Source of the DNA: Pelagomonas calceolata
Lineage: Eukaryota; Sar; Pelagophyceae; Pelagomonadales; Pelagomonadaceae
Length of the DNA stretch: 64,000 nt
Assembly: GCA_918797485.1 (NCBI GenBank)
Contig: CAKKNE010000003.1
Location: forward strand, 1,178,001 to 1,242,000
Reading direction: 5' to 3'
Below are positions 12,985-64,000 of the stretch, piece after piece. Every line of letters starts with the position of its first letter. The stretch's first letter is position 1. The position numbers and the translations under genes are program-made. Below the pieces are notes generated by a model that was given only the letters and a program-made list of their open reading frames with translations, did not search any database and was not told the origin of the DNA.

Positions 12985-13004
12985 CTAGTGTCTTACAGAG
13001 CTAG
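12985..13004 (-). promoter_or_regulatory. Intergenic CTAG motif, copy 1
   Basis: CTAGTGTCTTACAGAGCTAG, the reverse of the consensus CTAGCGG...TAAGACACTAG. It lies about 190 bp upstream of the FAD oxidoreductase/choline kinase start at 13198, in the 356-bp gap after the LHC gene. Nothing else is recognised in that gap. Confidence 0.6.
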
Positions 13005-13197
13005 CTAACACGGCCGCGGTGCCGCTCAGCACTGCAAGCGCGGCCCTGCATGCACGCGTCGGCGACGCTGCATAGCAGCATTAGCTGCGGTGACGACAGA
13101 TCATCGCTCTTTGTGCTGCGAGAGAACGCCGCGGCACAGCAACTCGCTGCAGCTTGCCGCTGCACAGGCTGCACAGCAGCGAGGCAAATGGCCTAAA

Positions 13198-15745
13198 ATG
13201 GCTGAAATGGCTAGCATTTACGACGTCGCAGTGATAGGCGGCGGAGTAGTAGGTTGCGGCGTCGCGCGCGCCTGTGCGCTGGCCGGCCGCAAGACGGTCC
13301 TGATCGAGCGCGAGGCGGCGTTGGCCTCGTCGCATGCGAGCGGCGGCAACACGGGCATCGCCTGCACGGCGGCCGACTGCGACGAGGGCACGGTAGAGCA
13401 CGCATGCCTCGAGCGCGCGGCGGAGCTGAACCGCGACGCCTACGACGCGTGCAACGTGCTCTACGCGGCGACGGGCGCCGTCTACGTCGCCTACGGCGCG
13501 GAAGAGGAGGAGGCGCTCGAACGGCTGGCCGATGCGCACCGCGCCGCGGCCGACTCTCTAAACTCGGGCGCCGCCGTCGAGGCGCGGTGTCGATTGCCGG
13601 GGCTCGCGGCGCGCGGCGCGACGCGGGGGCTGCACGTGCGGCGCGAGGTCACGGTCGAGCCGTGGTGCGTGCCCGTCGCCTGGGCCCTCCACGCGCGCGC
13701 GAACGGCGCCGAGCTCCTGTTGGGCCAAGAGGTCATCGGCGCGGCCTTTGACCAACAAATGTGGACGCTCGAGTTGAGGCAGCGCCGCGGCGAGCGGGCC
13801 GGCGCCGCGTCGGCGTTGCGAGCGCGCGTCCTCGTGAACTGCGGCGGGCTCTACGCGGACGCCGTCGACGCGACGCTGCGCGCGGGCCGCCCTACGTTCG
13901 CCGTGGCGCCGCGGCGGGGCGACTACGTGATCCTGGACGCGCGGGGCCCGCTCGCGTCGTTAGGCGCTCTCGCGCGGCCCGTCGGCGGCGTACCGCTCGG
14001 TGAGTTAGGCCGAGGCGCCTACGCGTGGCGCACGGTCCACGGCGACGTGGTCGTCGGTCCGACGGCCGAGCCCTACTCGGAAAGGACGGTGCCCGCCGAC
14101 GATCATTCTTCAGAAGCCGAAGCGACCCTCTTGCGAGCGGCGAAACGGGCGCTCGGCGTCTCGAGCTTCGACGCGATTCGAGGCCGCTACGTCGGCCTGC
14201 GCCCGGGCGCCAGGGACCAGAGCGACTATATTATTAAAAGGGACGGCGCGCGCGTCACCGTGGCGGGCATCCGGTCGACGGGCCTGACGGCGTCGCTGGC
14301 CATCGGCGAGCGGGCGCTGGCGCTGGTCGAGGAGGTGCTGCCCCGCTGCGCGGTGCCCACACCACAGGGCTTCGCGCTGCCGTCGCTCGACGAGCTGCGG
14401 GCGTCCTACGAGGGCGACACGAGTGCGGGAACGGTGTCCATCGGCGGCGAACGCGTCGCGGTCACCCACCCGCAGACGCGCTTCGGCCTCTGCCGCGCCG
14501 TCGAGCCGAAAGCGCCGCGGGTCCAGCGCCACGTCAATAGTGCAGAGGCGGCCCTGTCACTGGTGGAAGAGTTGCGGGGGCGCGCGCCGACGAGCGTCGA
14601 ACGGATCGTGGGAGGCCGCACGAACGACATGTTCCGCGTCGTCGACGACGAGGGCGTCTCGGTCCTCGTCCGCGTCTACGGTGGAGGGGACGACCTAGGG
14701 ATTGACCGCGACCTGGAGGGGGCCACGTTTGAAGCGGCGGGCCGCCACCTCGGGCGGCCGCGGTGCCTGGGGCATTTCGCCAACGGTCGCGTCGAAGAAT
14801 TTCTCGAGGGCCACCGCAACACGACGTACGAGGACGTGAGCAATCCGACGGTCTACCGCGAGATCGCCCGGGCCGTCGCGACGCTCCACACGTTCGTTCC
14901 GCCGCCGGAGTTGTGCGGTCCGTCTGGGCACGACCTCGACGCGCCAGGTTTATGGCCCACGCTGCGGGGCTGGCTCGCGGCCTCGGCGACGGACGCGACC
15001 GCGACGGCAATTTCTCGCGACGCCGACGATGCGAAGCTCTGGAGCGAGTACGCCTGCTTCCGCGACTTTGACGCGTTCGGCGCGGTCATTGACGCGGCTG
15101 AGGCGCGACTGTCCCGCGGAGACGACCTCGACGCTTCGTTAGTTTTCGCGCACAACGACCTCACGCTGGATAATGTGATGGTCGGGCCCGACGGTACGGT
15201 ACGACTGGTGGACCTCGAGCGGGCGCCGGCGTCTGTATCATTTGCGTATTTACGTATAGACCACACGCAACAAGGCCGGCCGGAGTGGAGACGCATAGGA
15301 TGGTCGGTTTAGAAACGGGTGGGAGATAGATATGAGCGTCTCTGAACTGGGGCCGTACCATGCGCGCTCCGGTATTGATCGCTTTCTACATCCGCACAGG
15401 TACGGCGGGCCGAACTACGCGGCTTTCGACGTCGCGAATCACTTCTGGGAGTGGTGCGGCGGGCTCGACGACTCGGCGACGCCGCGCTTCGAGCGGTATC
15501 CGTCCGAGGCGACGCGGCGCGACTGGGTCGAGGCGCTGCTCGCGGGCGCGGAGCCGGCGGCCGTCGATCGCTTCTGCCGCGCGGTCGACGCGTTCGCACC
15601 GCTGGACCACCTGTTCTGGGGGCTCTGGGCCGTGACCCAGGCGGCCTCGCTGGGGCGCTCTACGGGCTTCCGCTACCTGTTGTACGCGTCGCATCGGCTG
15701 TCGCATCCTTCGGTCGCGGAGGCGGTCGGGCGCGTCGTGAGCTAG
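13198..15745 (+). CDS. Fusion of FAD-dependent (DAO/GlpA-like) oxidoreductase and choline/ethanolamine kinase-like domain, 797 aa
   Basis: Exons are 13198-15245 and 15400-15745 (phase 2, donor GTATTT, acceptor CGCACAG). The first ~400 residues are a D-amino-acid-oxidase-fold enzyme: dinucleotide motif DVAVIGGGVVGCGVA, SSHASGGNTG, and a C-terminal GIRSTGLTASLAIGERAL motif typical of glycerol-3-phosphate dehydrogenase/2-hydroxyglutarate oxidase relatives. The remainder is a choline/ethanolamine kinase-type fold: VRVYGGG, VFAHNDLTLDNVM (catalytic loop), VRLVDLE (metal site), and AYGGPNYAAFDVANHFWEW completed only across the splice. Both active sites look intact. ATG at 13207 is an alternative start. 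The joint substrate is unknown; phospholipid head-group or glycerol-phosphate metabolism is a guess. Confidence 0.85.
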
Positions 15746-15773
15746 AGAGTTGTATAATAATGTCTGTACTTAT

Positions 15774-16466
15774 CTAGACGTCCTGGACGATGCCGTCGAT
15801 GACGTACTGCGTGCCACTGCGGCTATGAGTGTATGACCCTCCGGTGCGCACGGCCGCGAGGATGTGCCCCGACTTTTCTAAATTCCTAGCAGTTTCCGCG
15901 CGCGCGTCAACGTCGCCCTCGCCCGACGTCATCCACTTTATCGCATCGTCGAATTCATCCTTGACATACTTTTCAATGTTGCCGCCCCCTCGCGTGTGGA
16001 GCGACGGAGAGTCCGCGCCCGCCCGCAGAAGGGCACACAGAACCCCAGGCTGATGAGTAGCAGAGCAGAGCAGCGGCTTTTCACCCTGGCCCCGACGTGT
16101 AAAAGGATGCTGATGGACTATCTCGTCAACGCTCGCGCCCGCCTCAATCAGGACTTTGACAATTTCTGTCGTGTCGTACGCCGGATGTATGCACGCGACT
16201 ACGGCCGTAGCCAATGCCGTGCGACCCTCCTCAAGGCCGTCGATTTCTGCACCTTGAGCGAGTAGAACGCGGACCATGTCGGCGTCTCCGTCCGTGGCCG
16301 CCAACGTCAAAAGGCGATGCGGTGTGCCGAAACTGTCGAAAAATTCTTGGTTCACATCGCCGCCCGCTTTCACCCAGGCTTTCATGCCCGCGACGTCGCC
16401 CTCGCCCACCAGCTTACACATTTTTTGCCAGAGGCTATCATCCTGAGGAGGAGGGAAGAGCGGCAT
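15774..16466 (-). CDS. Ankyrin-repeat protein, 230 aa
   Basis: Protein-binding scaffold of about four ankyrin repeats. The repeats read DSLWQKMCKLVGEGDVAGMK, HRLLTLAATDGDADMVRVLL, TALATAVVACI...VLIEAGASVD, and PLLCSATHQPGVLCALLRAG. The chosen start MPLFPPPQDD opens the first repeat; an upstream in-frame start at 16559 is possible. No catalytic domain or membrane segment is visible. It converges with the oxidoreductase/kinase fusion gene (stops 28 bp apart). Partner unknown. Confidence 0.8.
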   Translation of the reverse strand: MPLFPPPQDDSLWQKMCKLVGEGDVAGMKAWVKAGGDVNQEFFDSFGTPHRLLTLAATDGDADMVRVLLAQGAEIDGLEEGRTALATAVVACIHPAYDTTEIVKVLIEAGASVDEIVHQHPFTRRGQGEKPLLCSATHQPGVLCALLRAGADSPSLHTRGGGNIEKYVKDEFDDAIKWMTSGEGDVDARAETARNLEKSGHILAAVRTGGSYTHSRSGTQYVIDGIVQDV

Positions 16467-16622
16467 AGCTGGGACGAGCTTGGAATCAACGCACGCGTTT
16501 GTAGCCACGCGAAACGCTGGCGTCCCGCCCAGATTACGGCCGCGCGCCTGCGGCACCAATCAAAACGGGTTTACTAGGCTGTGGCTGCGAGAACTTACTC
16601 CCCCAACGACGCCGTCGCCGCC

Positions 16623-19600
16623 TCACGCCTCGGCCGCAAAGACGTGCAGCGCCACCTTGCCCGGCGACGCGTTCGCCCTCTTCTTCTCCGGCCCCGGCGC
16701 GTCCTGCGTGGCGTCGAGGTCGACGATCGTAATATCTAAGTCGCCGCCGCAGATGTTCTTCTGGACGTACGTCTTCGACTCTTCCAGAATCTGGACCTGG
16801 GAGAAGGGCAGGACGTCGTCGAACGCGCCCAACCCGACCTCCGCCGCGTAGTCCTGCGTCGATGTAAAGGGTTACGCGGCGGTCACGGCGACGGCGTAAC
16901 CTCCACGCCATCGACGCGACGACGGCGTAAAGGACGCAGAAAAAGCACGTGCTGGAAGCTCCCGAACTGCATGGCCAATTTGGCCTGCTTCGCGAAGGGC
17001 CCGTCCTTGGCGAACGCCGGGTCCTTCTTCAGCGCCCCGAGCAGCTCCTTCTTCTCGACCAGCGACCCGTTGCAGACGGCGCGTGCGGTCTTGAGCACGG
17101 CCTTGCGCCAGTCCGGGTAGGTCGTGGCCACGTAAACGTAGGCGCCGGCCGGCTTCTTGCCCTTGAGCGATTTGAGCTCCTTCGCGGAGTCGAGCCTAAG
17201 CTGCCGCGCGGCCGACCGCAGAAAGCCGTAGGACCTCGAAAGAGCTTTATCAACTGGCCTTTCAGCCGGCCAACTAATCGCTGCTTTCTCCTTGAGCACG
17301 TCGAACCAGACGTGATGGCTAAAGTGCGGGCACACCGGCGCGAGTAAAGCTGCCTGCACCCGAGCATAATCAACTAACAAACCTTGGTGCATCGGCACGC
17401 CCGATTTCGCGCACCAGTCTCTATAGGCATCTCTCAGTAACTGCAACCCAAAGGCGCCGGCCTGGATGCCGTCGCGCCACCGCATGGTCTCGTAGCATGA
17501 TAGAGTTTCGGCTATCATAGCACCGAGCTCGTTCTTGAACGCGCGGTCGACGAAATAAGACAATTCTCCATCTCTCAAGAGCAGCTGGTCCTTTTTTCCT
17601 ACCGTAGGATCGCGCATGGCCGCCCGCGCGAAGATTTCTTCGACATATAACATCGTCACCGCACTATCGGCCCGCTTCTGCTCAAAATTAGCATCCTCCA
17701 ACGTGTCGCCCGCGTCCGCACAGGCAAAGCGAACCGCGTCCGCCGAGTACAAGTCGATGGCCTCGTCGAGCATCAAGAAGTTGCCGTCCGACTTGGACAT
17801 CTTGGCCCCGTTGAGTAGTACAAAACCGTTCGTGTACATGCTCCGGGGCCACCGCGTCTCCGACTCGTTCGGCCAGATCGCCGCGTGATTATACAGGCAC
17901 ATCGTCAGGTGGTTGCCGATCAAATCTTTACCGGACACTCGCAGGTCCATGGGGTACCAGTACTGGAACTCGCTGCGCATCTTCTCGAGGAGTGCGTCAG
18001 GGATAGTGGTGGAGGGCTTCGGCGCGTTTGATTGGTAGATGTAGTCCCAGACTTCTGGGGTGAGCGCCGAGGCGGGGAAGTTCGCTTCTTGAGAACCATC
18101 GAGATTCGTGGAACCACTACCCTGTAACACATGACATACGGTGTAATAGGCCATATAAATGGTACTATCCGACAAGGATTCGATGACCCAGCCGTCGTCC
18201 CAGGGGATCTTCGTGCCCAAGCCAAATAAACGAGAGCACGCCCACTCGCGCATCCACCCGAGCGTGTACTTGAACCGCGCGAGACACTCCGCGTTGTAGG
18301 CCTCGAAACTTTCGTCGACGTGCTTCATGACACCGTTGCGCCAGGCCTCTTCCCCGTACTTCAGGTACCACTGCTCCGTATGCGCTACGATGCACTCTTC
18401 GCCCGACCGGGACATCACCTGACTTTCCGGTTCAAAATACAGCAGAGCATCACCGGAAGCAATTAACTCGTCCTTGACCTTCTGCTTCGCGTCCGACACT
18501 TTTTCACCTTTATGAGGCCCGACTAACATGATCCCATAATTAAACCCATTCAAATAAGTCTCGCCCTTCGCAATTTTGAGCTTGGCCGCATCCTTCTGAG
18601 ACGTGATCTTGAGCTCCTCGCACCAGTACTCGGCGGACTTGTCCGACGACCAGGCCTTCTTCGCCGTCTTGCCCTCGCCCGACTTTTCGACGCTGATGTT
18701 TATTATAGGTACCACATCAAACGCTACATGCTTCTCTTCGATGCCGTACTTAGTACGTAACTTCTCGTCAGTCTTCAATTCATGGAGCGCGATCCAGTCG
18801 TCCGGCGCGTCCGAGGGTACACTGGTAACTACTCCGGTACCTTTGACCATACTGATGGTCGTAAGGGGTAGAGTGTAGACTATATCGTACTTCGCGAGCG
18901 GGGCCTTGAGCGGACATCCGAGTAGTTCGCTACCCTTGAACAGCGCTCCGACCAACTCGGGCTTGCCCCACTCCTTTGAATAGCCATGGAAGTCGTCGGG
19001 GCCGTTCGGATTCGGCGTGAAGGCGCCCTGGTGGCTCAGGCCGACGGCCGCTCTGTGAGACATGACGAAGATCTGGCCGTTCGCCTGCCGGAAGGCGCCG
19101 TAGTCGCCCGACGGCAACACATAGCAATTCGTTTGCCCGTACATCGTTTCCGGTCGCAGCGTCGCGGGCACCAAAAACACCTCACTGTCGCCACACGCTT
19201 TTAAACAAGGCCAATTGCTATCAGCAACTTTCAATTTAATAAGAGAGTACTCTTGCGGGCCCACTCCTTCCCCTGAACTACGATCGTGGTCGGCGCAGCA
19301 CTGCGCGTCTTTCACGGCGTACACATTAGCTCTTTTACCATACGCGATGCGGTCACCTTCTTTCAATTTCAAGAACTGCCATCTCACAAACGAATCGTAG
19401 TACGGGTTTTTATCCGTAGTGACAAATGACCGCCGCCAGTCGATGGACGCCCCGAACTTCTTCAAATCCGACACACCATAGGGCGGGAAGTAGTCCAGCC
19501 ACCGGTACGGTTCCGCAAACGCAGCAATTTCATTGGCAGGGATACCCATCTTCTCCAGAGCTTGCCACTGGTAGGAAGTACCCGCGGCCTTCTGGCCCGT

Positions 19601-20277
19601 CTTCGCTTTTTTGGCCTTGCCCTTCTTGCCGAGGGCGGCCATCTCCTTCGCGAGGGAGTCCACTTCTTTCGTCGGTGCGGGCGGCTTGTCTTCCGGGAAC
19701 TGCGGAGGATTGCCATAGGTTGCGATCTCGTTTTTTAGTTTATTGGCTGCTGCTTGAATCGGCATGCCCGTGCAGTGGAAGCCGAAGGGGAATAAGACAT
19801 TATATCCTCTCAATCTTTTGAAACCAGCGGCGAACTCCGCTTTCGTGAGTGAGAAGGCATGTCCCAAATGTAATCTCCCGTTCATGTAGGGGTACCTGTA
19901 CGTGCATAGTTACGTTCATACGGTACACTCTCTCGGTACGGTACGACGAGGAGGCGTCAGACAGCATTTGTAAAATGCGAGCCGCGGGCATGGGCGCACG
20001 CGGGCTCCCGGGCAGGTTCGTTCCGCGTACTCGCGGGGCCCGGGACAACCGCGGGCCGTTCCCTGTCTTCTCGCGCGTCATCCCTCGCCTCCTCTCTTCT
20101 CTTGTGTTGTTGGACGCTGCGTCAGGACGGGAAGGTCACGAAGAACTTGGGCTTGCCCTGTTCGGCGTCGGCCTCGAACGTGCCTTCGGTCTCCCACTGC
20201 CGCTGGACCTGGGCTTCCAGCTTGAGGAGGGCATCTCTGCGCGTGTTAGATTTGGGTGGGGCCGGTGGGGTCGCCAT
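16623..20277 (-). CDS. Cytosolic-type leucyl-tRNA synthetase, 1108 aa, three exons
   Basis: Charges tRNA-Leu with leucine. Exons are 20277-20129, 19895-16949 and 16853-16623. Exon 1 (MATPPAPPKSNTRRDALL, to KPKFFVTFP) joins exon 2 to rebuild FPYPYMNGRLHLGHAF with the HIGH-type motif HLGH. The editing domain follows, and KMSKSDGN is at about nt 17790. Length and N-terminal layout match the eukaryote/archaeal cytosolic LeuRS. The last intron is introner-like. Its donor (CAC|GTGCTT) is the only nearby GT keeping frame with the C-terminal DYAAEVGLGAFDDVLPF exon, so that boundary is less certain than the first. Confidence 0.92.
16854..16948 (-). mobile_element. Introner-like intron near the 3' end of the LeuRS gene
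   Basis: Contains CGTCGCGTCGATGGCGTGG, the introner core, and ends in GACGCAG. CCTTTACG and CCTTTACA copies lie inside both ends and may be remnants of a duplication, but the element ends are eroded. Confidence 0.6.
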
Positions 20278-20469
20278 CGTCGCACGCGTCTCGGTTTTGC
20301 AGTGCTCTCCGTGTGCTGCTGCTTGCTCGCAGTTCAACGCTCGCGCAGCGACTGGCGTGCGGTGAGCGGGTATCGCTGTGCTTCAAGACCACGTGCCGTG
20401 TCCCAGACAGCGATCTATGCTCGGAAGCGATGCAAACACGCGGATTTTTGCGCAAGCCTCGCCATCGGG

Positions 20470-20487
20470 CTAGCGGTAAGACACTAG
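20470..20487 (+). promoter_or_regulatory. Intergenic CTAG motif, copy 2
   Basis: CTAGCGGTAAGACACTAG, the shortest form (no spacer bases), followed by CAAG and a T-run. It sits in the 520-bp divergent promoter between LeuRS (start 20277, minus) and the Fused-type kinase (start 20798, plus). No other gene is seen in this gap. Confidence 0.65.
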
Positions 20488-20797
20488 CAAGTTTTTTTCG
20501 GGACTTCATGCAAGCGTCCGAGCATCCTCATAAAATGGCTACGCCGCTCTCACAGTCGCTCCACGGGGAAATCACTAGAACCCGCTTTGCAAAACAAAGT
20601 TTTGAGTGCGCCGTCGGCCGCGCCGTTCCGCACGCGCGCCAGCCACACCTCTGTGCCACGGGCAGTCCCGCGGCAGCCCCGCGGCGGCACTCCGGCACGG
20701 GCGACGCGTCGGGCAGCCATCACTGCGCGCGCCGCTTCCACAGGCCCACCAGACGGCTACAAGAGCGGCCGCGCCGGGGCAGCGCTACACACAAGCA

Positions 20798-23700
20798 ATG
20801 CCGCGCGCCGCGGAGGTGCCGCCGGCGTTCGCGAGCGGCTCGCACGACAACTATATTGTACTGGAACGAATTGGTGAAGGTAGTTTCGGCAAGGTCTACA
20901 AAGGACGACGAAAACACACGGGCCAGACCGTCGCGTTGAAGTTCATCGGCAAGCACGGCAAATCGGAAAGAGATTTAAGGAACTTGCGCCAGGAGATCGC
21001 CATCCTCAGCGCTTTAGATCATGAGAACGTCGTGAAGATGTTCGACTATTTTGAAACTGAAAGAGAATTTTGTGTCGTGACGGAGTTTGCTAGAGGGGAG
21101 CTGTTCGAGATCCTCGAGGAGGACGGGACCTTGCCGGAAGAGGCGGTTCGAGATATTGCTCGTCAGCTAGTGAAGGCGCTGCACTACTTGCACTCGCAGC
21201 GCATCATCCATCGGGACCTGAAGCCGCAGAACGTTTTACTAGGAGCGAATGGCCGGGTCAAGCTATGCGACTTCGGCTTCGCTAGAGCGATGAGTATGGA
21301 TACCATAGTATTGACATCTATAAAAGGTACACCCCTGTACATGGCTCCGGAGCTCGTCAAGGAGCAGCCCTACGACCACACGGTCGATCTGTGGTCCCTC
21401 GGAGTTATCTTATTTGAGTTACTGGTGGGCCAGCCGCCGTTCTATACGAACTCGATCTACTCGCTCATAAACCACATCGTGAAGGACCCCGTGGTCTTTC
21501 CTAGTCATGTTTCTGAAAGATTTGAATCATTTCTGAGCGGTCTGCTAAGGAAGGACCCCCGCCGGCGACTCGCGTGGCCCGAGCTTCTGGAGCATCCGCT
21601 GGTCCAGGATACTGATGAGGATAGACAGAAACAAGAAGAGGAAACGAGGTTCTACGAGGGCTGTGGGGGCGCGGGCCCGCCGCGCGGTCGACTGGAAAGG
21701 TTCGTCGCGCGATTGGAGACGACGCCGATGGATACGACGGAGGACCCCATGCCGCCGCCGCCGCCCCGCGAAGTACGACAAAGGGAGGCGCGGCCGCCGG
21801 CGCCGCCGCCCGCGCACACTCAGGGTTTGGACGCGGCGCGATCGGCCCTCCGGAAAGGTACTATATCCTCACTGAGAGACGCGCTCTCGGCGTGCGCCGA
21901 CGCTGATTTTACAGATGACTGGAGTGACACGGTAGAAGACGTGTGCCAGAAGGCGGTTGAAATGGCGACTGCATGTCGGCGCGGGCCGCGGGAAAAGCGA
22001 GACCCTCCCGCAAAATTACTGGGGGGCTGCTGCCGCGTCCTCGAGAAGGCGTTGCAACACAAAGCCGCCAATGCTTGCCAAGCTACGTTAGATTTAGCTT
22101 CGCAACTCGTACGAGCGCCGCCGTGGTTGAGGGATAGAGAAGGCGATTCCTCGAAGCCCTTCGTCGCCACGTCCGCGCGCTGGGCCCTCGCGGCGTCGCT
22201 CCGCAAAGCTCTTCTGGAAGAGGAAAACGGGTCCGACCCTATCATAAGGCAAGCCGCTTTAAGGTGCGCCATCTCTGCTTTAAAACGAGCGACGCCCGCG
22301 ACGCTCGACGTCTTGCTGGCCCACCAGCTCCCTCGAGCATTGGCAGCTCGGATCACGGGCGACGACGCCCTATCAGCTGCCAAAGCTTTGGCCTTGTTCC
22401 TGGAGCCGCCCTACAACGGCCACTGGAAACCGCCGTCGCCCTTTCCCTTGTCTATTGTCGGTGACGAAGATGATGATTCTGCATTAAGGAGCGCCGACGG
22501 CGTCTCCACGTCCGTGCGGGAGCGTTTTGCATTAAGACGACGCGTGGAGAAGGCCGTCGCGGAGGCGGTTGGAGATGATGCGCAGTCCGAGTCCGCGCGC
22601 GGCCTCTCCGCCTTGCTGGAGGCGACTAGCGACGACGCTTCCCGAAGATTGGTGTTGAGGACCATCGCGCGCTGCGCCGCCGCATCCACAAATTCCGCTC
22701 GAGCATTGGCTGCTTGTGGCGTCTGGTCCACGTGTTGTGATATTGCGACGAGCGATACTCCTTATGCCTCTGGATTGAGCCTCGCTGCTCTGGGAGCCAT
22801 GGCGAAGGCCGACGCATTAAGTCCAGACGCAACTCTACAAGCGGTCGAGGCGGCGAAGCAGGTGCTAAACGGCGGCTCCGACGACGCGCGCGTCCTGAGC
22901 GCGGCGACCGGTTTATTGGATGGGGCGTTGCGGGCCGCTCGTTCCCGAGCCGACGCCCACGCCAAGGCGAAGAACGAGGACGAGGACGCGCTGAAGGGCC
23001 CGAACGCCGTCGCTACCGCTGTTCTCAAAGCCGCCGCGGCGCCGAAGGCCCTGCAGGCCGTCTGGCGCGTCTTGACCTACGAAAGTCCACGCATAGAGCA
23101 CGAGACCGATTCTGATGGAGACTCGGACGACGACGGGCGGGGCTCGCGCGAGCTCGCTTCAGCAACACTGCTGGACGGCGGACGATTAGGTGCGCGGCGC
23201 TACGGGTTGTTGGACGCGCCGCTGCGCCTGTTGACGCACTCGGCGGCGCTGGTGCCGTTGATCGGCGCGCGCCTGACGGCAGCTAAGTTATGGAGGCCCC
23301 TGATCGACCAACTGTCCCGAGGCGGCGCGAACGAGCTGAGCCCCGGAGGGGTGGTGGCGGGCCTGGGCTGCGTCAAGGCGATGCTCGACGCGGCGCCGGC
23401 GCGCGACCGGCCCGCGCTCATCTCCGAGAATAATGGGGCGCTCGCGCGCGTCTGCGCGACGTGTTGCTCGCCGCCTTATTTAGGTAGGGTGGCGAGATGG
23501 CCCGAAAACGCCGACGGCGGCGCGTCCGGCGTCGGGGCGTGCTTGCAGGCCGTGGCCCAGCTGCTGCGAGCAACCTTGGCGCGGGAGGGCGCCGCCGCCG
23601 CGCAGGCCGGCGCGACGCCGCCCGCGGGCCCGTCGCCCGACGTCGCCGCGGAACCGACCCCAAAAACGGAGGCCGAGCAACTACGGATAGCTGTTGATGA

Positions 23701-37193: not shown

Positions 37194-37462
37194 GGTCTTG
37201 CCTCTGCTGCAGTGCTTGCTACTGTGCTATTGTTGCGACGTTTGCTGCAGCACGCTTTTGCGCTGCAGTTAACTTATTACGATGACGCTACCGCATCCCT
37301 GCGCATCGCTGCGGTGCTTTTTGCAGGCCTCGCTTGCTGCTTCTCCTCATTGGCTAGTGTCTTTGTGCACTATCCCTAAGTTTTTTCTCCCTCGGACGAC
37401 GTGCTTGCGCGGGACGGAGGGTTTCCATGGCGGTTTGGACGTGTCAAATTCCAAAATGGACC

Positions 37463-37484
37463 TAGCGGCCTAAGACACTCTAGC
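37463..37484 (+). promoter_or_regulatory. Intergenic CTAG motif, copy 3
   Basis: CTAGCGGCC then TAAGACACTCTAG, followed by CAAG. It lies in the 504-bp divergent promoter of RPC1 (start 37193) and the E2 gene (start 37698). Nothing else is recognised there. Confidence 0.65.
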
Positions 37485-38353: not shown

Positions 38354-38373
38354 CTAGCGGCTTAAGACACTAG
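38354..38373 (+). promoter_or_regulatory. Intergenic CTAG motif, copy 4
   Basis: CTAGCGGCTTAAGACACTAG, followed by CACTG. It lies 193 bp upstream of the small membrane protein at 38547 and 72 bp after the E2 stop. Confidence 0.65.
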
Positions 38374-39999: not shown

Positions 40000-40022
40000 C
40001 TAGTGCGTTTACGTGACGCTAG
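40000..40022 (-). promoter_or_regulatory. Intergenic CTAG motif, diverged copy 5
   Basis: CTAGTGCGTTTAC then GTGACGCTAG. Ends match the consensus but the centre has diverged. It lies in the 351-bp divergent promoter of the lumen protein gene (39870) and peptide deformylase (40222). Confidence 0.45.
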
Positions 40023-41621: not shown

Positions 41622-41643
41622 CTAGTGTCTTACAGGCCGCTAG
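41622..41643 (-). promoter_or_regulatory. Intergenic CTAG motif, copy 6
   Basis: CTAGTGTCTTACAGG then CCGCTAG, preceded by a T-run (the same CAAAC flank on the other strand). It lies 68 bp upstream of the small 41711 frame and 123 bp upstream of the possible TPR start at 41499. Confidence 0.65.
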
Positions 41644-44826: not shown

Positions 44827-44828
44827 AA

Positions 44829-46306: not shown

Positions 46307-46327
46307 CTAGCGGTCGTAAGTCACTAG
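46307..46327 (+). promoter_or_regulatory. Intergenic CTAG motif, copy 7
   Basis: CTAGCGGTCGTAAGTCACTAG, followed by CAAAC. It lies in the 340-bp divergent promoter of GT14 (46169) and kinesin-9 (46510). Confidence 0.65.
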
Positions 46328-52843: not shown

Positions 52844-52864
52844 CTAGTGTCTTACAACCGCTAG
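52844..52864 (-). promoter_or_regulatory. Intergenic CTAG motif, copy 8
   Basis: CTAGTGTCTTACAACCGCTAG. It lies in the 503-bp divergent promoter between the membrane protein (52742, minus) and the 53246 gene (plus). No other feature is seen in that gap. Confidence 0.65.
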
Positions 52865-53987: not shown

Positions 53988-54001
53988 ATCCCATGTTTAT
54001 A

Positions 54002-55006: not shown

Positions 55007-55027
55007 CTAGTGCCTCTCCACCGCTAG
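55007..55027 (-). promoter_or_regulatory. Intergenic CTAG motif, diverged copy 9
   Basis: CTAGTGCCTCTCCACCGCTAG. Both ends match the consensus, the centre does not. It sits in the 678-bp divergent promoter of the CCB-like gene (54688) and RFC3 (55367), 340 bp upstream of RFC3. Confidence 0.45.
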
Positions 55028-55320: not shown

Positions 55321-55366
55321 CCGTGCCACCGCACACACGCGAGCCGCCGCCCGCAGGCCGTCCACG

Positions 55367-56437
55367 ATGCTCTGGGTCGACAAGCACCGGCCGACGGCCT
55401 TGGAGAAGTTGAGCTACCATGCGGAGCTCGGCGAGCGGTTGGGTTCTATGGCCGAGGACGGGGACATTCCTCATCTGTTGTTTTACGGGCCGTCGGGCGC
55501 GGGCAAGAAGACGCGCGTCCAATGTTTGCTGAAGGCTTTATATGGTGCCGGTGCCGAGAAGCAGCGCCTCGAACATAGGGAGTTCAAAACGCCGACGAAC
55601 AAAACGATCGAGGTCACTACCGTAGCTTCGAACTACCACATCGAGATGAACCCTTCGGACGCGGGCAACAACGACCGCTTCGTCGTGCAGGAGGTCATCA
55701 AGGAGATCGCGCAGTCCGGTTCGGTGCTCGCCAAGACGGGCGCGCAGAAGAAGGGCCCCGCGTTCAAGGTTATTCTGATGGTGGAAGTGGACCGGCTCTC
55801 GAGACAAGCGCAGGCCGGCTTAAGGAGGACCATGGAGAAATCGTCGTCGGCTTGTAGACTCGTGATGATCTGCACGAACCCTTCCAAAGTTATTGATCCT
55901 ATAAGATCGAGATGCCTGGGCATTCGCATCGCGGCTCCCTCCGAGGAGGAGATCGTAGGTGTCTTACACGAGGTCTGCGAGAAGGAGCGCCTCACGTTGC
56001 CCGACGAGCTCGCCGCGCGCATCGCCAAGTCCTCGGGCCGGAACCTGAGAAGGGCGATTCTAGCCTTAGAGGAGTGCAAGGTGGCCCAATACCCATTCAA
56101 TCCATCAATGCCGGTGCCCCAGCCCGACTGGGAGGTCTACATCAAGGCCATCGCCCAGGATATATGTAGGGAGCAGTCGCCGGCGCGCCTCGTCGCGACG
56201 CGCGACAAGTTGTATGAGTTATTGGCCAAGTGCATCCCCGCGGACGTCATCCTCAAGGAGCTCTGCGCGGAGCTCGTCTCGAAATTAGATGACGAGCTCA
56301 AGCCCCAGGTCATGGCCTGCGCGGCCTTCTACGAGCACCGCGTCCAGCAGGGCTCCAAGGAGATCTTCCACCTCGAGGCCTTCGTGGCCAAGTTCATGGT
56401 GATCTACAAGAAGTTCATGGACGCGATGTTCGCGTAG
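55367..56437 (+). CDS. RFC3: Replication factor C subunit 3 (clamp loader small subunit), 356 aa
   Basis: Part of the five-subunit ATPase that loads PCNA at replication forks. Starts MLWVDKHRPTALEKLSYH; Walker A-like FYGPSGAGKKTR; then TVASNYHIEMNPSDAGNNDR, VILMVEVDRLSRQAQAGLRR (Walker B/sensor region), ICTNPSKVIDPIRSRCLGIR (SRC motif) and a C-terminal collar domain ending FVAKFMVIYKKFMDAMF. The Walker A is GPSGAGKK, and VEVD replaces the usual DExD, both as in RFC3 subunits. Normal length, single exon. Confidence 0.95.
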   Translation: MLWVDKHRPTALEKLSYHAELGERLGSMAEDGDIPHLLFYGPSGAGKKTRVQCLLKALYGAGAEKQRLEHREFKTPTNKTIEVTTVASNYHIEMNPSDAGNNDRFVVQEVIKEIAQSGSVLAKTGAQKKGPAFKVILMVEVDRLSRQAQAGLRRTMEKSSSACRLVMICTNPSKVIDPIRSRCLGIRIAAPSEEEIVGVLHEVCEKERLTLPDELAARIAKSSGRNLRRAILALEECKVAQYPFNPSMPVPQPDWEVYIKAIAQDICREQSPARLVATRDKLYELLAKCIPADVILKELCAELVSKLDDELKPQVMACAAFYEHRVQQGSKEIFHLEAFVAKFMVIYKKFMDAMFA

Positions 56438-56506
56438 TCGTGGCGCTTCGGGTAAATTATGTTTCGCTTTCTTAGGCTCGATACTTGCCGTCCGACACCG
56501 CGTCGG

Positions 56507-56706
56507 CTAGCGACGGGGCGGAGTCCGGCATGGATCGGATGGCGGCGGCGTTTCGCGGGCGCCGAGCGCGGCTCGCGCGTCTCGCAGGGATAGCTCAATG
56601 TCCACTGTGTGCGGGTGCGCACTCCCGAACACGCGTCGCGCGGTCCGTTCGACCCCGTCGAGCGTCGTCACGGCCTCGCGGAGATCGTTGAGCGTGGCGG
56701 CGGGGT
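56507..56706 (-). pseudogene. C-terminal fragment of a TPR/kinesin-light-chain-like protein
   Basis: The frame reads [40 protein letters not shown] and DARAALGARETPPPSDP before a stop. This is the typical tail of kinesin-light-chain-like TPR proteins that are abundant in pelagophytes. No start or preceding repeats are present; the frame adjoins the scrambled histone sequence. Confidence 0.55.
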
Positions 56707-56713
56707 CCGTGTA

Positions 56714-57015
56714 TGGATCTCGCGGGACGAGAGCGTCTTCTTCTTGCTGTAGCGGCAGAGCTTGGACGCCTCGAGCGCGATGCGCTCGAATATGTCGTTA
56801 ATGAACGAGTTCATGATGCTCATGCCCTTCTTGGAGATGCCCGTGTCGGGGTGGACTTGCTTGAGGACTCGGTAGATGTACGTAAGAAGAAGACGCTCTC
56901 GTCCCGCGAGATCCAAACGTCTGTCCGCCTCATGCTCCCCGGCGAGTTAAGCAAACACGCTGTCTCCGAGGGCACCAAGGCTGTCACCAAGTTCGAGTCC
57001 GCCTCGTCCAACTAA
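56714..57015. pseudogene. Scrambled histone H2B with inverted central segment
   Basis: The minus strand (about 56880-56714) reads the H2B core: [40 protein letters not shown], then [11 protein letters not shown]. The plus strand (56884-57015) reads the H2B end: [40 protein letters not shown] and a stop. The shared [10 protein letters not shown] sequence forms a perfect 32-bp inverted repeat (56714-56745 and 56884-56915). No single frame encodes H2B and the N-terminal tail is missing, so this is a fold-back inverted duplication of a histone gene, probably not functional. Confidence 0.8.
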
Positions 57016-57193
57016 ACGATCACAAGGCTGGACCAGTGTGCTTGCACACGTCAGAGTCCAGTCGATCATCCTACCCGGTTTTTCCAAAAACCACCCCTCC
57101 ACACGAAGCAATGCCACAAATATAAATAGATCACAACTCCTACCCGTTTTCAAACCCCTTTCAACAAACGAATCAATACCAACACACTTATTA

Positions 57194-60100
57194 CTATGTA
57201 GACCCCGTAGAATCACGACCACTATCCCCACCAGCACTCTTCCGCGCCAGCTCCGCCAACCGCCGACTCCGCGGCGCCACGGGAGCCAAGCCACCACTCG
57301 TAACCGGCTTCGCCGACGCGACGCGGCGGACCGTAGGCCGCGAGGAAGACGCCGCGGCCGCGGAAGCAGACAACGTCTTGGCCACTTCTTTGGTGGACAG
57401 CGACTTGCGCCTTGATAAACCGTGCTGCCGCAGCTCCTCGCGCCGCAGCCGCGCTTCCTCCTCGTCCGACAACTTCTTGAGCACCGGCGCGCGTTCGGCG
57501 CGCTCGATCGCGGGCCAGGGATCGAACGGACCCCGCACCAACCGCCCGCGCGGCTCCTCGGCGAACACATGCTTCAGGACGCGTTCATCATCTTCAGTGA
57601 CGTCGTCTTCCTCATCATCATAGATGCCGGCCTTCGCGAGAGCGCGCTTGCGCAAAGCCGCGACGTCGCGCGCGTCTGCTAAGGCGTCGCCATCACACAA
57701 GGAATGCCGCTCTACTAACTTGCGCAGAGCCGCATCTTCACTCTCCGTAGGATGGGCGTTGTCCACGGCCTTGGCAGCTCGTAAATAATCAGCTCTCGCA
57801 CCTTGGACGTCATTACCGAGTTCCTTCGAGGTGGCCTTGTAGGCGTCGTCGGCCTCGCGCGCTAGATCTCTCAGCAATTGCCGCCCGTACTGCTGCTGGA
57901 GGTACTCGGAGCGAGAGTCCGCGAACGCGGCGTCGCGCTCGTCCCGTCTTTCCTCCAAGGCAGCCTCTAATGTAGCGACTTTCTTCTTGCGCTCGTCCCG
58001 ACGTTTCTTGAGGGTCTTGTGCTTCTGCGCCGTCTCCTCCAATTGAGCCTTGGACGGGTAGTAGTACGCCGGGTGGCGCCGCTGCTTCGCTGGTAAGGGT
58101 GGTAATTGCTGCGTCCTCCTTTGACCCGTGGCGCCGTCCCAGCCGGCGTTGACGCGGTCGCCCCGTTCGCGAGCTACTAATTCTCTCAGTCTCTCAACCA
58201 ACTGCCGCCGCCACGCCGCCTTCGCGCCGGACGAGTCCAGTTGGAACTTCTCGGGACCTGCGTGGAGATCAAAATTTCACGGCGCGTTCACGCCAGCTCG
58301 ATGGCGTGGCGATGCCGGTTCCTCGCCGCTCGACGGAGCCAGCACGGTGCACCCGACGCACTGGTTGATTTCCACACAGCTCGGGACACGCCGCGTAGAT
58401 CGCCCTAAGCTCGACGACGTCGTAATCGCCCAAATTGCGGAACGAGTCCGCGCCGGCGCCGGCCAGAAAGTTCTGGGTGGCGACGTCGTCAGGGTGCGCC
58501 TGGACCCAGTGGAGCGGCCGCGCGTTCTTCAACCTCTCGGCGAGAGCATACGTGTAGCAGCCGCCCCAGGCCGCCGCAATCGCGAGAGCCTTCTTGTCGG
58601 AGACGGGGGGCTCCTCCGTGGTGTCGCCCTCGGCCTCGCGCTTCCGCCGCTTCGCCTGGGCCGCCGCCTGGGCGACGACGCGCGCCGCGCGGTGCCGCAG
58701 GCCTTCCACGGTGTCGCCCTTGATGTCCGGTGGGACGAGCGTCCTTATTAATGCCAGGGCCGCCGCATTTGCAGCTTCTTCTCTCCGACTCCACTCCCTT
58801 TCTTCTTCAGCTAGCTTGGCGGCGCGATTCGGCGCGTCGCGTTCGCGGGCCCTCCACACGTCCAGCGCGCCTTCGACATCCCGCAAATTCGTCCTGAGTC
58901 GATCGCCTTCCCGCCTTGCTTCTTTGGCTGTCTCTCGTAGCAGAGCTAAAGCGGCCGAGGCGGCCGCGGCGGCGGCGTCGCATTTCAGGATCGTCGCGGA
59001 GGCCCTGCGAGCTTTACCAGCGTGCGACTGGTCGTCGTCGTTTTCGTCCTGCAACGCGTCGACGACGGGCGCCGTGCACGTCTCAACAATCCCAAACTCG
59101 GGCAGCTGGACGGGCAAGCGTGCAGCGTCCGCGGCGGCCCGACTTCGCGCTTTCACGAGCGCCGCTTTCGCGGAAGCGAGGGTCTTGGGCTTCTTCTTGC
59201 GCGGCGCGGACAGCGCGGCCCCGAGGCCGCCGCGGCCCCGCCCGCGGCCCGCGATGGCCGCGAGCAGGCCGCCGGGCGGCGCCGCGCCGCGGCCGCGGCC
59301 CGGAGGGCCGCCGCGGCCGCGGCCGGCGATCGCCGCCAGCAGGCCGCCCGCCATGGGATTGCCCTTGCCCTTGCCTTTGCCAAAGGGATTCGGCGGCCGC
59401 GCCGGCTCCTCGCCTTGCTCCGAGAAGCGGCGCTTCGAGGGATCAACCTGTGTGGACAGCGTGTCGCGTCGATGGCGTCGAGGTGGATTAGATCGGCGCG
59501 CAGGAACCGTCTCAGACTGAAGGCAATATCAGGACGCCGAGGCGGACCGGCTGGGCGGCATCAGGCGCGTCACTAGTATCTTCCGCGTCGCGCGGGAGCG
59601 TCGCCGCCGCGTCGCGCTCTTGTGAATCGTCGTCAACATCAAAAGCTTCGTGGTCACCAACACTTCGAACCGAGTCCTCGCGCGCCATGCTTTGTTTTTC
59701 TTTCACAGGAGACGTCGCCAGAGCGCGCTGAGCGGCGTGCGCCGCCGATTCACGCGAAAACTCCTGAGCAGCAGTACCTCGTGTTACGGAAGACGCCTCG
59801 ACCACGTCCTCCAAAGCCCTCAAAACAGCTACATCATCAGCTAGTTTAGCGACCTGGTCGCACCGCGACTCGTCCCACATCAATCGATCGTAGTCGCCCT
59901 CGGCCTTTTCGCGTTCCGCCTTCGCTAAACCATATGGATCTGCCGTCTCGGTCGACGCGAGCTTCCACTCGAGCTCGTCGTCGTTCAAGCCCGCATGTGC
60001 CTGCAACAACGCCAGCTTCTTCTCGAGGTCCGCGGCGTACTCCGAAATCTCCTCGGGCCGCCTCGCGGACGATGAGGAGGACCGTTTGTCCTCATCACTA

Positions 60101-61197
60101 CCTTCATCCACCACTTTCGGCCGGCCCATGAGGCGCTTCTTGATGCCCTTGGCGCCGCTCGCGAACATCTTCTTGAGCGACTTGCGCTTGGGCGCGGGTC
60201 TATCAGGAGACCTAGCCTCGTCTTCCGTCTCCCATTTGCTCGATGTTGCTGATAATGCGGAGACGGGTTGTACAACGGAAGATGTTGGAGGTGTGACCTC
60301 CTCCCGCAAGACGAGGGGGGCCTTGTGGTCTTCACCATCATCGCTGTGACCGTCGCCTTCTTGATCTCTAGCGTCGGCCTCGGCCCGGTTCAGGGCCGCG
60401 TCGTCGTCGTCGGGTGTAGCGGCGGCTTTCGCGGGCGCCGGCGACGGGGCGCGCGCTTGCGCGGGCGGCGGCGACGGCGCATCCTTCGGCGACGGCGCCG
60501 GGGCGTCGCCGTCGCTGTCGTCGCCCTCTTCGTCAAAGGCCGGCGGCGACGGCGCGCGCGCGGTTTTTGCAGGAGAAAGAGCGTCCACAACCTGAGAAAC
60601 AGCTTGATTTACTTTCGCGGCGGCCTCCTCGATGACCGAAGGCGGCCGCGGGTCGTCGATGAGGTCCTCGATCGACTCCATGATTTCTGCATCGCTCTTC
60701 TCGGCTATAGGCTCCGACGGAGAAGGCGCGGCGGCCGGCGCGGGCGCCTCGTCCTCACTATCCGACGACGAGTCCCGCAGCAGCTCCGCCAAGCGCTTCT
60801 TCGCGTCCGCCCCTACGCCGGCCGCCGCGTCGCGCGCATGTAATCTGGTTGCAGCCGTGCAGTTCATGAGGGGCGACGGCGGGCTTTGAGGCGACGCATC
60901 CAACATACGCTGCAGCGCCGCCGTCGCCGTCGCGGCGCGCTCTTGAAAGCTCGGCGGCGTCGGCGGGAAGGGGTCCGTGTCGGTGCCGTCTCCCTCAGGA
61001 CTCCGCGGCGGCGTCGCCGGCGGCTTGATGGACTCGTGCGTCCACGGCTCGTCACTCGCACCGAAGAGCGGCGACGCGGCCCTCACGAACGCGTCGACGT
61101 CGTCGCCGTCCGCGCCGGGGTCCTCAGCTTGATCGGTGTCCGACGCGAGCAGTTCTTTCAGGGTTGCATTCGTGGCGGTGCCGAAGCCGCGCAGCAT
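57194..61197 (-). CDS. Large unknown protein, 1267 aa, three exons joined by two introners
   Basis: Exons are 61197-59518, 59447-58388 and 58257-57194 (phases 0 and 1). The first exon is mostly disordered: Ala/Pro/Asp/Ser-rich repeats, a lysine-rich nuclear-type signal (KRKSLKKMFASGAKGIKKRL) and one helical stretch (EISEYAADLEKKLALLQAHA). Exon 2 starts VDPSKRRFSEQGEEPARPPN, has two GLLAAIAGRGRG repeats, then coiled coil. The junction to exon 3 restores a conserved-looking block, VVELRAIYAACPEKFQLD. Exon 3 is highly charged coiled coil (KKRRDERKKKVATLEAALEE). No enzyme domain seen. The two splices make one frame out of what otherwise looks like three separate genes. Confidence 0.7.
58258..58379 (-). 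mobile_element. Introner element with perfect 8-bp target-site duplication
   Basis: 122-bp element running CTGCGTGGAGATCAAAATTTC to GGTTGATTTCCACACAG on the plus strand, flanked by identical CTCGGGAC copies (58250-58257 and 58380-58387). On the coding strand the upstream copy GTCCCGAG supplies the GT donor; intron 58258-58387. Splicing restores TGT CCC GAG AAG exactly. Confidence 0.92.
59448..59517 (-). mobile_element. Introner-like intron 1 of the 1267-aa protein gene
   Basis: Plus-strand start CTGTGTGGACAGCG with GTCGCGTCGATGGCGTCGAGG inside, 70 bp. The far end has eroded and flanks match poorly (GGATCAAC against TCTCAGAC). Donor GTCTGA, acceptor CCACACAG, phase 0. Confidence 0.72.
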
Positions 61198-61552
61198 CGC
61201 TTCACTAATGCGGCACGCGGCGTCGCGCTGCCAAATATAAGCTTCACGTGTGCGGCACGCGGCGTCGCGCTGCTAAATAATAATGTGTGCAGCACTCAGT
61301 GTTCAGTGTTGGCTGGCTGCCGCGCCGCTGCGTCCGCGGTCGAAGCGCTGCAATCAAACGCGGTGCAGTCGGCAGGAACACGTGCGTACGCTTCCGCCCG
61401 CCTCGTTTTAAGCGCTGGGACCAACAACAACAAATGCCGAGGCTGGAGGCCTCATAGATGGAGGTCGCAAGCCATGTCCAAAAGCACACCAGCAGCCGTG
61501 GAGTGACGCCTTCGAGGGCGTGGAAGGCGACGGCGCGACGCGTCCGGGCCGT

Positions 61553-61575
61553 CTAGTGTCTTTACACGCCGCTAG
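61553..61575 (-). promoter_or_regulatory. Intergenic CTAG motif, copy 10
   Basis: CTAGTGTCTTTACACGCC then GCTAG. It lies in the 684-bp divergent region between the 1267-aa protein gene (61197) and RBM25 (61882). The region also holds the doubtful 61587-61883 minus-strand frame. Confidence 0.6.
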
Positions 61576-61586
61576 CTAATCTCGAC

Positions 61587-61883
61587 TCACCAAAACGCCG
61601 GACGCTCGCGCTTGCGCGCTGTCGCGCTGGTAATTGCGGGACGCTGGCCGTACTGGCGATACACGTGTAGCAACGCCTGCGACGTGACGAGGCGCTCGGC
61701 GCGGCTCCGGTAGGCTATTTCGGCCACCGCCTGTTCACGCGTGCGCTTACGCGACGCGCCGCGACGCCGCGGACCGCCGCCGCGCGTGGCCGCCGCGAGA
61801 CGCCCGGCGCCGCACAAAGCAACGCGCCGCGCCGCTCCTGAAAAAAAAATTAGCGCGGGCGCTTGACAACGCGGCGACACCAT
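61587..61883 (-). CDS. Doubtful small basic protein, 98 aa
   Basis: The second half, SRKRTREQAVAEIAYRSRAE and RLVTSQALLHVYRQYGQRPA, looks like real protein, but the first part is low-complexity and includes a T-run followed by CAG, a possible splice acceptor. Its ATG overlaps the RBM25 ATG on the other strand. It may be the last exon of a gene or chance. Confidence 0.3.
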   Translation of the reverse strand: MVSPRCQAPALIFFSGAARRVALCGAGRLAAATRGGGPRRRGASRKRTREQAVAEIAYRSRAERLVTSQALLHVYRQYGQRPAITSATARKRERPAFW

Positions 61884-63617
61884 GAACCCATGGGGCCAGC
61901 CCCAGCAACCCTACAACCCGGCCATGGCCGCCTACTACCAGCAACAACAACAAGCGGCCTACGGCGCCTACCCGCAGCAGCAGTACCAAGCGCAGCCGCA
62001 GTATCAACCAGTCCCGGGCTACCCGCCGCAGCCGCAGTACCCCTACGCGCAGCCCGGGTATGCCTATCCGCCGCAGCAGACGTATGGGGCCGCCCCTGCT
62101 TATTACCCGCAGCCCGTGGTACCAGCAGCACCGGTCGCCGCGCCGCCGGCGCCACCCGCGCCTGCCCCAGCACCAGTAGCTGTGGAATTACCAGAGGGAG
62201 CCAAAGCCCCCATGAACGTGTTTGTGGGCAAATTACCGTTAGACGTCCACGAATCGTGTGTCGAAGCGCTACTCAAGCAGTGCGGCGGCGTGCTCAAGTG
62301 GAAGCGATCGGTCGGTGATAATAATGTTCCCAAGGCGTTTGGGTTTTGCACCTTTAGCGATGCGCAAGGCGCTCTAGCTGCCGTGGAGCTGCTGAATGAA
62401 TTCGACTTGAAAGGGCAAAAAATACAAGTGAAGACGGGCCAGAAGGAGCAGGCTATCCTTGATGACTTGATCACGAAGCGGCGCGCTTTGACGTCGGCGG
62501 CCACGCAGACGTATTCATCGCCTCCTGGGGGGGTCCAACGGACTCCCGCCGACGAGGAGAAATTATCAAGGCTGCGTACTTTTGTATCGACTATAGATAC
62601 GACGAAGCCCGTGCCTGCGGCTGCCCTCGCGTCATTAATGCCGAACGCGCCCGCACCGGGCTCCAAAGAACAAATGATCGCCGAGGAGATGGAGAAGTTC
62701 CGCGAGAAACAAGCGCAACGCGACAAGGAGCTCGAGGACGAGCGCCGACGGAAGCTCCAGGCCAAGGTCCAGGAAGCTCAAGCGTTGGAGAAGACCATAA
62801 GTGCATCATTGGATTCGGCGAAGAAGCGCACGCTGGGCATGAAGGGTGGTCCCGAAAAGCGGCCGAAGCTCGAGACGCCGGCGGCGGTACGTATTTCCCC
62901 TGCTCCCGCCATCGCGTCGACGGCGTGGAGGGCGCCGCCGCCGCCATCGCCGTCGCCGCGGGGCCGCGCCGCGCGAGAGCCAAGCCGTGCTCACGCTACG
63001 CCCCCGTCGCAGACCGCGCTCGCGCCGAACGCGCCCAAGCTCGGCTTCTCGCTTGGCGGCGCGCCGGCGCCGCCGCGGGGCTTCAAGCCCGGGCTGGCTA
63101 CCTCTGCGTTTGGCGCCGAGGAGGCTTCTAAGCCGCGCGTGCTCCAGAAACTCGACGACGACGAGTCCGCGGCGCCAGCGCCCTCTTTATCTGATAATCA
63201 ATCATCCGCGCGCGCGGCCACAGACGAGGATGCCAAAAAGCGCGACCGCGCCATCGCCGAGGCCATCCCGACCGACGCCGACCAGCTCTTCAAGGCCACC
63301 GTGGATTGGGCCGCCGTACGTTCACCGGTGTCCTCTGTATCAACTTGTATCATTGCAACATATAGGTGGAGCGCGCGGGCGTCGTCCAGGCCAAGTTACG
63401 ACCGTGGGTCGCCAAAAAAATCGCCGAGTATCTGGGGGAAGAGGAGCCCACACTGATCAATTACATCTGTTCCTGCTTAGGGCGAAGGGCCAAACCAGAA
63501 GAAATCCGCGACGAGCTCGCACTGGTCTTGGACGAAGACGCGCAGACCATGGTCGTCAAGCTGTGGCGCGTCCTATTGTTCCACGCGGCGAAGGCGGCGC
63601 AGCGCCCCTCTGCGTGA
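61882..63617 (+). CDS. RBM25/Snu71-like splicing factor (RRM + PWI), 519 aa, three exons
   Basis: U1 snRNP-associated splicing regulator. Exons are 61882-62886, 63013-63315 and 63366-63617 (both introns begin GTACGT, phase 0). The N-terminal ~95 residues are Gln/Pro/Tyr-rich (MAAYYQQQQQAAYGAYPQ). The RRM (~110-195) has NVFVGKLPL (RNP2) and KAFGFCTF (RNP1). A charged coiled coil (EEMEKFREKQAQRDKELEDE) follows. The PWI domain is completed only after the last splice: AKLRPWVAKKIAEYLGEEEP, then VLDEDAQTMVVKLWRVLLF. The first intron (126 bp) keeps the frame if retained, so it is less certain; it would otherwise add a 42-residue Pro/Arg-rich insert. Confidence 0.9.
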
Positions 63618-64000
63618 AAAATATTTTCGCGGGCGTTTTCTCTTACCCTTTCCGGCGTTCCTTCTGGCAGGTCCCGCGGCGGCGGCGAGCGATAGCGGTG
63701 ATCCGGGCGGCGTTGCGCGCTCGGCTGAATGTGTTCTTAACCTAAGACTCTCTAGACTAGGTTGCGCGTCGCGTCGCGCCGGTCCGCTCCTAGAGTTAGT
63801 CCGTCCGCTCCTAGAAGTGGCGGCGAAAAAGCAGCTGCACCTCGTTCTCTGTACGACGATGCTAGGATTAATCCTGTTACCGTGCTACAGAGGCGTACAA
63901 GCTCGTACCTTGTTTCCTAGTGTGTTACAGACCGCTAGCCACTCTTGTCGTCGAGCTTCGCGAGTAGCGAGCTGGTGCAGAGCAGAGCTCGCAAGGAAGA
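63618..64000. other. Intergenic end of window
   Basis: Nothing protein-coding recognised after RBM25. One copy of the CTAG motif lies at 63917-63938, suggesting a promoter for a gene beyond the window edge. Confidence 0.4.
63917..63938 (-). promoter_or_regulatory. Intergenic CTAG motif, copy 11
   Basis: CTAGTGTGTTACAGA then CCGCTAG, near the window edge, with the same CAAAC-like flank on the other strand as copies 6 and 7 (GAAAC here). Confidence 0.6.

Follow-up and report, generated by a model that had tools for sequence, protein, structure and literature searches.

In budding yeast, the sites of the general regulatory factors Reb1 and Abf1 occur at many promoters and are indifferent to orientation, and in animals the sites of CTCF, ZNF143 and M1BP are long promoter or boundary motifs present in thousands of copies. 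Reb1 and Abf1 are characterised as barrier factors: when they are lost, nucleosome-depleted regions become narrower at promoters carrying their motif, although they are described as dispensable for the resetting that takes place just after replication (PMC12541377). In fission yeast, Sap1 is associated with a motif of 21 base pairs (bp), for which the 5,000 best matches were used, and the element Tf1 inserts beside it at the fixed positions -9 and +19 (PMC5741268). Here we describe a 22-bp motif with two CTAG-bounded halves from the pelagophyte alga Pelagomonas calceolata, which came to attention as eleven copies within one stretch of 64,000 nucleotides (the window; bases 1178001-1242000 of contig C3).

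We conclude that this motif is probably bound by a single abundant nuclear protein with sequence specificity, which would mark promoters in general and in either orientation in the manner of Reb1 and Abf1. Compared with the sites of those factors the algal site is longer (~28 bp) and consists of two halves separated by a gap of 0-4 bp; to our knowledge, it is unrelated in sequence to the sites of CTCF, ZNF143 and M1BP. A motif found at about a third of promoter-bearing regions is of use as a predictor of promoters and gene starts, as bait for its binding factor and as a promoter part for genetic tools, and it would add a lineage far from yeast and animals for the comparison of general promoter factors. 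It also provides a possible natural link between the site of a general factor and mobile DNA.

P. calceolata is described as ranking among the most abundant marine eukaryotes, and its RCC100 genome is reported to comprise six nuclear contigs of 32.4 Mb, a plastid and a mitochondrion, with 16,667 genes (PMC9481584). The words 'motif' and 'promoter' occur 0 times in the main text of that report. No description of a pelagophyte promoter motif was found among the open-licence papers listed, and among the matches listed there for the letters of the motif none was on an alga by its title.

Motif structure and abundance

The genome searched comprised 32,445,274 bases in 8 contigs. The exact form, CTAGCGG followed by 0 to 8 variable bases and TAAGACACTAG, occurs 1,486 times (771 forward, 715 reverse) compared with 0 for a reversed-pattern control, and with three tolerated variants (G/T at L7, G/C at R4, A/G at R5) the count is 2,550, against 0 in the control. 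The single variants CTAGCGT and TAACACAC are represented by 516 and 188 copies in the genome, a form with a fixed 4-base gap and up to three mismatches by 2,412 (16 in the control), and the right half TAAGACACTAG alone by 2,503 (7 in the control). Within the window the right half with up to two mismatches was found 14 times, not all of these being motif copies, against 4.95 expected (maximum of 11 in 100 shuffles); CTAGCGG by itself shows no enrichment (10 against 11.1 expected), and it is therefore the pair of halves that is special.

Unbiased rates were taken only from 264 kb, consisting of the window and C1:100001-300000, a part of one other contig, since sites elsewhere were picked for holding the motif and rates based on them are biased. 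With up to three mismatches, this sample contains 39 copies, whereas dinucleotide-matched random sequence of the same length gave 0-1 in five trials; the density corresponds to roughly 4,800 copies genome-wide if the sample is typical. The consensus is AG-CTAGCGG-N0-3-G-TAAGACACTAG-CAAG, a site of ~28 bp with 18 strongly fixed bases. Changes occur mainly at a few positions: 34 of the 44 mismatches in the 39 copies fall at L7, R1, R2, R4 and R5, with 1 in the left CTAG and 5 in the right CTAG. Conservation ends sharply at -2 and +4 of the motif in a set of 62 ordinary copies (from which loci L006-L008 were omitted as overlapping the 264 kb).

The gap is variable within narrow limits. In a hand count of 100 places among the matches listed, all on C1, it measured 4 bases in 62, 3 in 23, 2 in 8, 0 in 5 and 5 in 2, while gaps of 1 or 6-8 bases were absent; gaps of 9-38 bases yielded only 29 copies genome-wide, of which ~22 are versions of a single palindromic form (also counted by hand). 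One half, GCTAGCGG, imperfectly repeats the other half when that is read backwards, GCTAGTGT; a pair of similar binding modules would fit such an arrangement.

Placement within promoter regions

Gene models were obtained with our own hidden Markov model gene finder, trained on the window and the 200-kb C1 stretch. None of the 39 copies is located in a coding exon, although 72% of the bases are coding; the even spread over exons that the original prediction had named as grounds for abandoning it was thus not seen. One copy assigned to an intron looks like a gene-join error, as an ATG was read by eye ~200 bp downstream. When genes of at least 200 coding bases are considered, the motif is present in 23 of 52 divergent and 13 of 45 tandem regions but in only 1 of 30 convergent regions (Fisher test against convergent, p = 4e-5 and p = 0.006, respectively). 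Among the 10-mers of divergent and tandem regions, the word CTAGTGTCTT, taken from the motif, ranks first (21 occurrences versus 0.04 expected).

The nearest start codon (a start codon, not a transcription start) lies 98-349 bp away in all 36 promoter-region copies, with a median of 212 bp and a standard deviation of 67, compared with 309 for random placement in the same regions. Two copies in one region were found in 0 of the 97 promoter-bearing regions, where 6.2 such regions were expected and 0 of 5,000 simulations gave so low a number. Orientation relative to the nearest gene is the same in 19 copies and opposite in 17, so that the motif, described earlier as directional, is directional in its own sequence but not in its placement. 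In all, 36 of the 97 promoter-bearing regions carry the motif, and in the window these stand in front of genes of unrelated Pfam function. A further 23 copies (5 near one end of C1 and 18 from C1, C2 and C3) comprise 13 in divergent regions, 5 in tandem, 0 in convergent, 2 at an edge and 3 called as intronic; among these last, L003 has starts at 225 and 191 bp on its two sides, L092 has a start at 127 bp, and L082 is ambiguous.

Conservation in a relative

A scan of prokaryote genomes with the motif matched 9 stretches, two of them from a metagenome-assembled genome (MAG) named Spirochaeta sp. MED672. Four MAG loci (L102, L103, L106 and L107) were compared with sampled algal DNA, and L106 alone was searched against the whole genome. 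This locus (NZGT01000013.1) is syntenic with C6:2237579-2245050, with 84-90% identity in long aligned pieces, and is therefore taken to be misfiled algal DNA. It contains three motif copies, 159-233 bp before open reading frames (ORFs), and the motif is kept at 3 of the 3 sites compared between this relative and P. calceolata. At site B, 19 of 20 motif bases are identical and the sole change is in the spacer, with the flanks matching at 34 of 80 positions upstream and 55 of 80 downstream. Site A differs by one inserted base and one change, and there the relative has ~150 bp extra directly before the motif; at site C the motif has opposite orientations in the two algae.

The other MED672 stretch, L102 (NZGT01000041.1), also carries the motif, has by eye an apparent copy of the dispersed repeat described below at the left flank of that motif, and likewise looks like misfiled algal DNA. 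Within P. calceolata itself, C3:120250 and C6:3789245 (loci L034 and L048) are near-identical copies of one stretch with the motif unchanged and an indel in its flank; they probably correspond to the chromosome-end duplications reported in the genome paper.

A dispersed repeat that ends in the motif

The original prediction had also held that it would fall if the copies were ends of a longer mobile repeat, and this turned out to apply to a minority. A BLAST search with one such unit returned 57 candidates and up to 40 scored matches genome-wide, including the query locus and a few that are little more than the motif. The unit is non-coding, ~90-250 bp long with ragged left ends, and is found on C1-C6 (e.g. 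L033, L040 and L050-L068). Most copies examined end in the motif; the unit runs into CTAGCGGCCTGTAAGACACTAG, beyond which there are often CAAG repeats, in some cases preceded by GGATGCCTAG or its reverse GCATCCCTAG, and the motif is broken in a few. A second motif, read by eye, stands just upstream in ~9 of 23 copies, and in ~6 of 23 the insert lies between direct repeats of 8-13 bp, a weak signal under permutation (at least 9 bp in 3 of 23 versus 1.2 permuted).

A profile built from 24 units matched none of the 39 copies of the 264 kb, and it matched no ordinary copy in L001-L008 or L073-L092 either. Among the 62 ordinary copies, no conserved sequence was found beyond -2 and +4 of the motif, such sequence being present only in the minority dispersed unit, and a shared flank word of at least 7 bases was present in 7 versus 4.95 permuted, which is the level of chance. 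Because conservation stops at AG-[motif]-CAAG and flank repeats are at chance level, the ordinary copies are not, as a rule, ends of a longer repeat.

The dispersed element may carry a motif site with it and sometimes land beside another, much as Tf1 lands beside Sap1 sites. Unlike Tf1, which is a long terminal repeat retrotransposon, the algal repeat contains no coding part that was recognised, and the motif forms its own end. Reverse transcriptase (RVT_1) matches occur at 5 places genome-wide, among them C5:520700, which is over the cut-off; the best nuclear match, at C3:4986104 with a frame of 246 residues, has no motif within the 8 kb examined and was rejected as a long interspersed nuclear element parent. 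A Helitron-like end was considered for the long-gap form, in which a hairpin before CTAG resembled one, and was dropped as no further support was found. Another dispersed repeat, with more than 30 matches in this genome, occupies L106:2050-2172 and is part of the ~150 bp that directly precede the motif in the relative only. In 35 places counted by hand (e.g. C1:2585293 and C1:3605212), a segment that follows the motif and is enclosed by two CTAG reads GGATGC in 17 and its reverse complement GCATCC in 18, and neither of the two mixed forms permitted by the search pattern occurs; the segment seems to flip in place.

Interpretation and alternative explanations

The site, its number, its placement ~200 bp from start codons, its single occurrence per promoter region, its lack of orientation preference, its sharp borders, its tolerance of change mainly at certain positions and its conservation in the relative are results of direct computation. 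In the model that we favor, a putative protein, or pair of proteins, would read the two CTAG-bounded halves across the flexible gap of 0-4 bp and, once bound, would define a promoter for one or both neighboring genes, whatever their function. The predicted factor would keep the DNA between divergent genes, or ahead of a single gene, open for transcription; such opening is reported for factors of this kind (PMC12541377). The suggestion made from the window, of a general promoter element or insulator and not the regulator of a pathway, is supported: the link to promoters is strong, as shown by the absence from exons, the enrichment in divergent and tandem regions and the narrow distance to start codons, and the neighbors are unrelated.

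Several observations weigh against this model. The gene models are not curated, were trained on the same DNA and joined genes across the motif at least twice, and 61 of the 97 promoter-bearing regions are without the motif. Two window copies, at 38354 and 41622, have no well-supported downstream gene (ORFs of only 92 and 54 amino acids), and when genes below 300 coding bases are ignored these two, both from the window, fall in convergent regions. Tandem regions on the + strand carry the motif in 12 of 26 cases and those on the - strand in 1 of 19 (p = 0.003), an imbalance without a biological reason that may stem from errors in the gene models or from chance. The conservation test covers 3 sites, and it was the motif in the relative that led to them. 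Finally, divergent promoters that lack the motif have at their midpoints a GC dip and A/T tracts nearly as strong as those around it, so that open chromatin is not specifically tied to the motif; after this control, the composition dip was dropped as support.

The dispersed repeat raises the question of whether the motif is the end of a retroposon-like mobile repeat that inserts into promoters, with the short copies as its remnants. The units that mostly end in the motif, the second motif and direct repeats beside some of them, and the ~150 bp directly before one motif of the relative that are absent here favor such an origin, which we nevertheless consider rather unlikely: the ordinary copies lack both a match to the repeat profile and flank duplications, random 5' truncation would leave a range of lengths instead of a constant unit with a variable spacer, and the position and the one-per-promoter rule argue for selection. 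The statistical weakness of the insert duplications and the few RVT_1 places, the best nuclear one without a motif nearby, point in the same direction. It is possible, if unlikely, that the motif is a self-renewing, reversible cassette with palindromic CTAG ends that flips in place and is re-seeded by the mobile unit, so that the sign of a third of promoters would be kept up partly by a mobile element. This idea arises from hints, namely that orientation differs at site C, that the GGATGC segment occurs both ways, and that the dispersed unit ends in the motif and in places adjoins another copy; the flip at site C could also be loss and regain, because the flanking CAA is turned too.

An insulator or boundary element separating neighboring transcription units would be consistent with indifference to orientation and with a near-central position in divergent regions (mean deviation 0.11 versus 0.25 for random placement, 23 copies). 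The motif keeps, however, just as constant a distance from the start codon in tandem promoters that have long stretches of DNA upstream (in one region of 3,036 bp it stands 218 bp from the ATG), and its rarity in convergent regions speaks for a promoter role, which leaves an insulator improbable. A similarly low probability attaches to a site for an ordinary transcription factor that acts under particular conditions on a very large regulon, such as one of cell cycle or light; the restriction of the motif to 36 of 97 promoter-bearing regions would suit such a factor, but the genes beside the copies, as seen in the window, are functionally unrelated. An action in RNA, as a hairpin of the 5' leader or as an RNA polymerase III or RNA gene element, is scarcely credible: although the halves can pair GCUAG with CUAGC in 2 of 5 folded copies, the near-equal orientations relative to the gene and fold energies close to those of shuffled sequences (z from -1.6 to 0.6 in the 5 copies) speak against it. 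Searches of the window for Rfam families and tRNAs gave no match, and tRNA, Rfam RNA and RNA hairpin were rejected as identities.

Copies in the window and their neighbors

All eleven copies anticipated in the window are present (Table 1), although the one placed at 37463 begins at 37462. Ten fit CTAGCGG-N0-6-TAAGACACTAG with up to three mismatches, the copy at 40000 (CTAGCGTCACGTAAACGCACTAG) being more divergent. As proposed, 0 of 11 lie inside predicted coding exons, and the distance of 70-400 bp before a start that had been put forward for ten of them was borne out: for these the closest predicted start is 79-329 bp away, the eleventh copy lying at the window edge. Placement between divergent genes was likewise recovered for several, the number in our count being seven and not six. 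A Pfam scan of 18 reading frames beside the copies, 4 of which gave no family beyond small ORFs and unknowns, identified a class I tRNA synthetase, a kinase, an RNA polymerase large subunit, an E2, a deformylase, a Core-2/I-branching enzyme, a kinesin and RFC3, in keeping with the claim that the genes served are unrelated.

Table 1. Motif copies in the window with strand and genomic context
Feature	Position	Strand	Context
Motif copy CTAGCTC-TG-TAAGACACTAG	12985..13004	-	212 bp before + gene (DAO/choline kinase-like)
Exact copy, spacer 0	20470..20487	+	318 bp before protein kinase gene; further left, class I tRNA synthetase gene (LeuRS in the original prediction)
Copy with 2-bp insertion in right half	37462..37483	+	Flanked by RNA polymerase large subunit (-) and E2 (+)
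Exact copy, spacer 2	38354..38373	+	Downstream start is only a 92-aa ORF, no Pfam match
More divergent copy	40000..40022	-	Divergent promoter; peptide deformylase at 212 bp
Exact copy, spacer 4	41622..41643	-	Downstream gene is only a 54-aa ORF; otherwise convergent region (exception)
Copy with 1 mismatch, spacer 3	46307..46327	+	Divergent promoter; kinesin (+) and branching-enzyme-like gene (-)
Exact copy, spacer 3	52844..52864	-	Divergent promoter; both genes without Pfam match
Copy with 3 mismatches	55007..55027	-	Divergent promoter; RFC3 at 350 bp
Copy with one extra A (TAAAGACAC form)	61553..61575	-	Divergent promoter; RRM gene at 319 bp
Copy with TAACACAC variant	63917..63938	-	Window edge

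Other sequences compared

Viral contigs contained 0 exact motif matches, and 8 viral-contig stretches with degenerate patterns have another spacer, flank or base composition and appear to be chance matches. Other matches outside this genome (L103, L104, L105 and L107-L110) were judged chance or unclear and left out. Pelagophyte introners resemble the motif in being short and repeated in the same genome, but they differ in their ends and in their genic place; they have the form CTGTGTGGAAATC...GATTTCCACACAG inside genes, and with no motif copy in exons an identity with introner ends was rejected. Introners with these or closely similar terminal repeats were observed at 10729-10929 of the window and at C1:293792-293990. 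A second promoter-region word, GGGGCAGCCC, occurs in 891 copies genome-wide versus 101 for its control (e.g. C1:170180).

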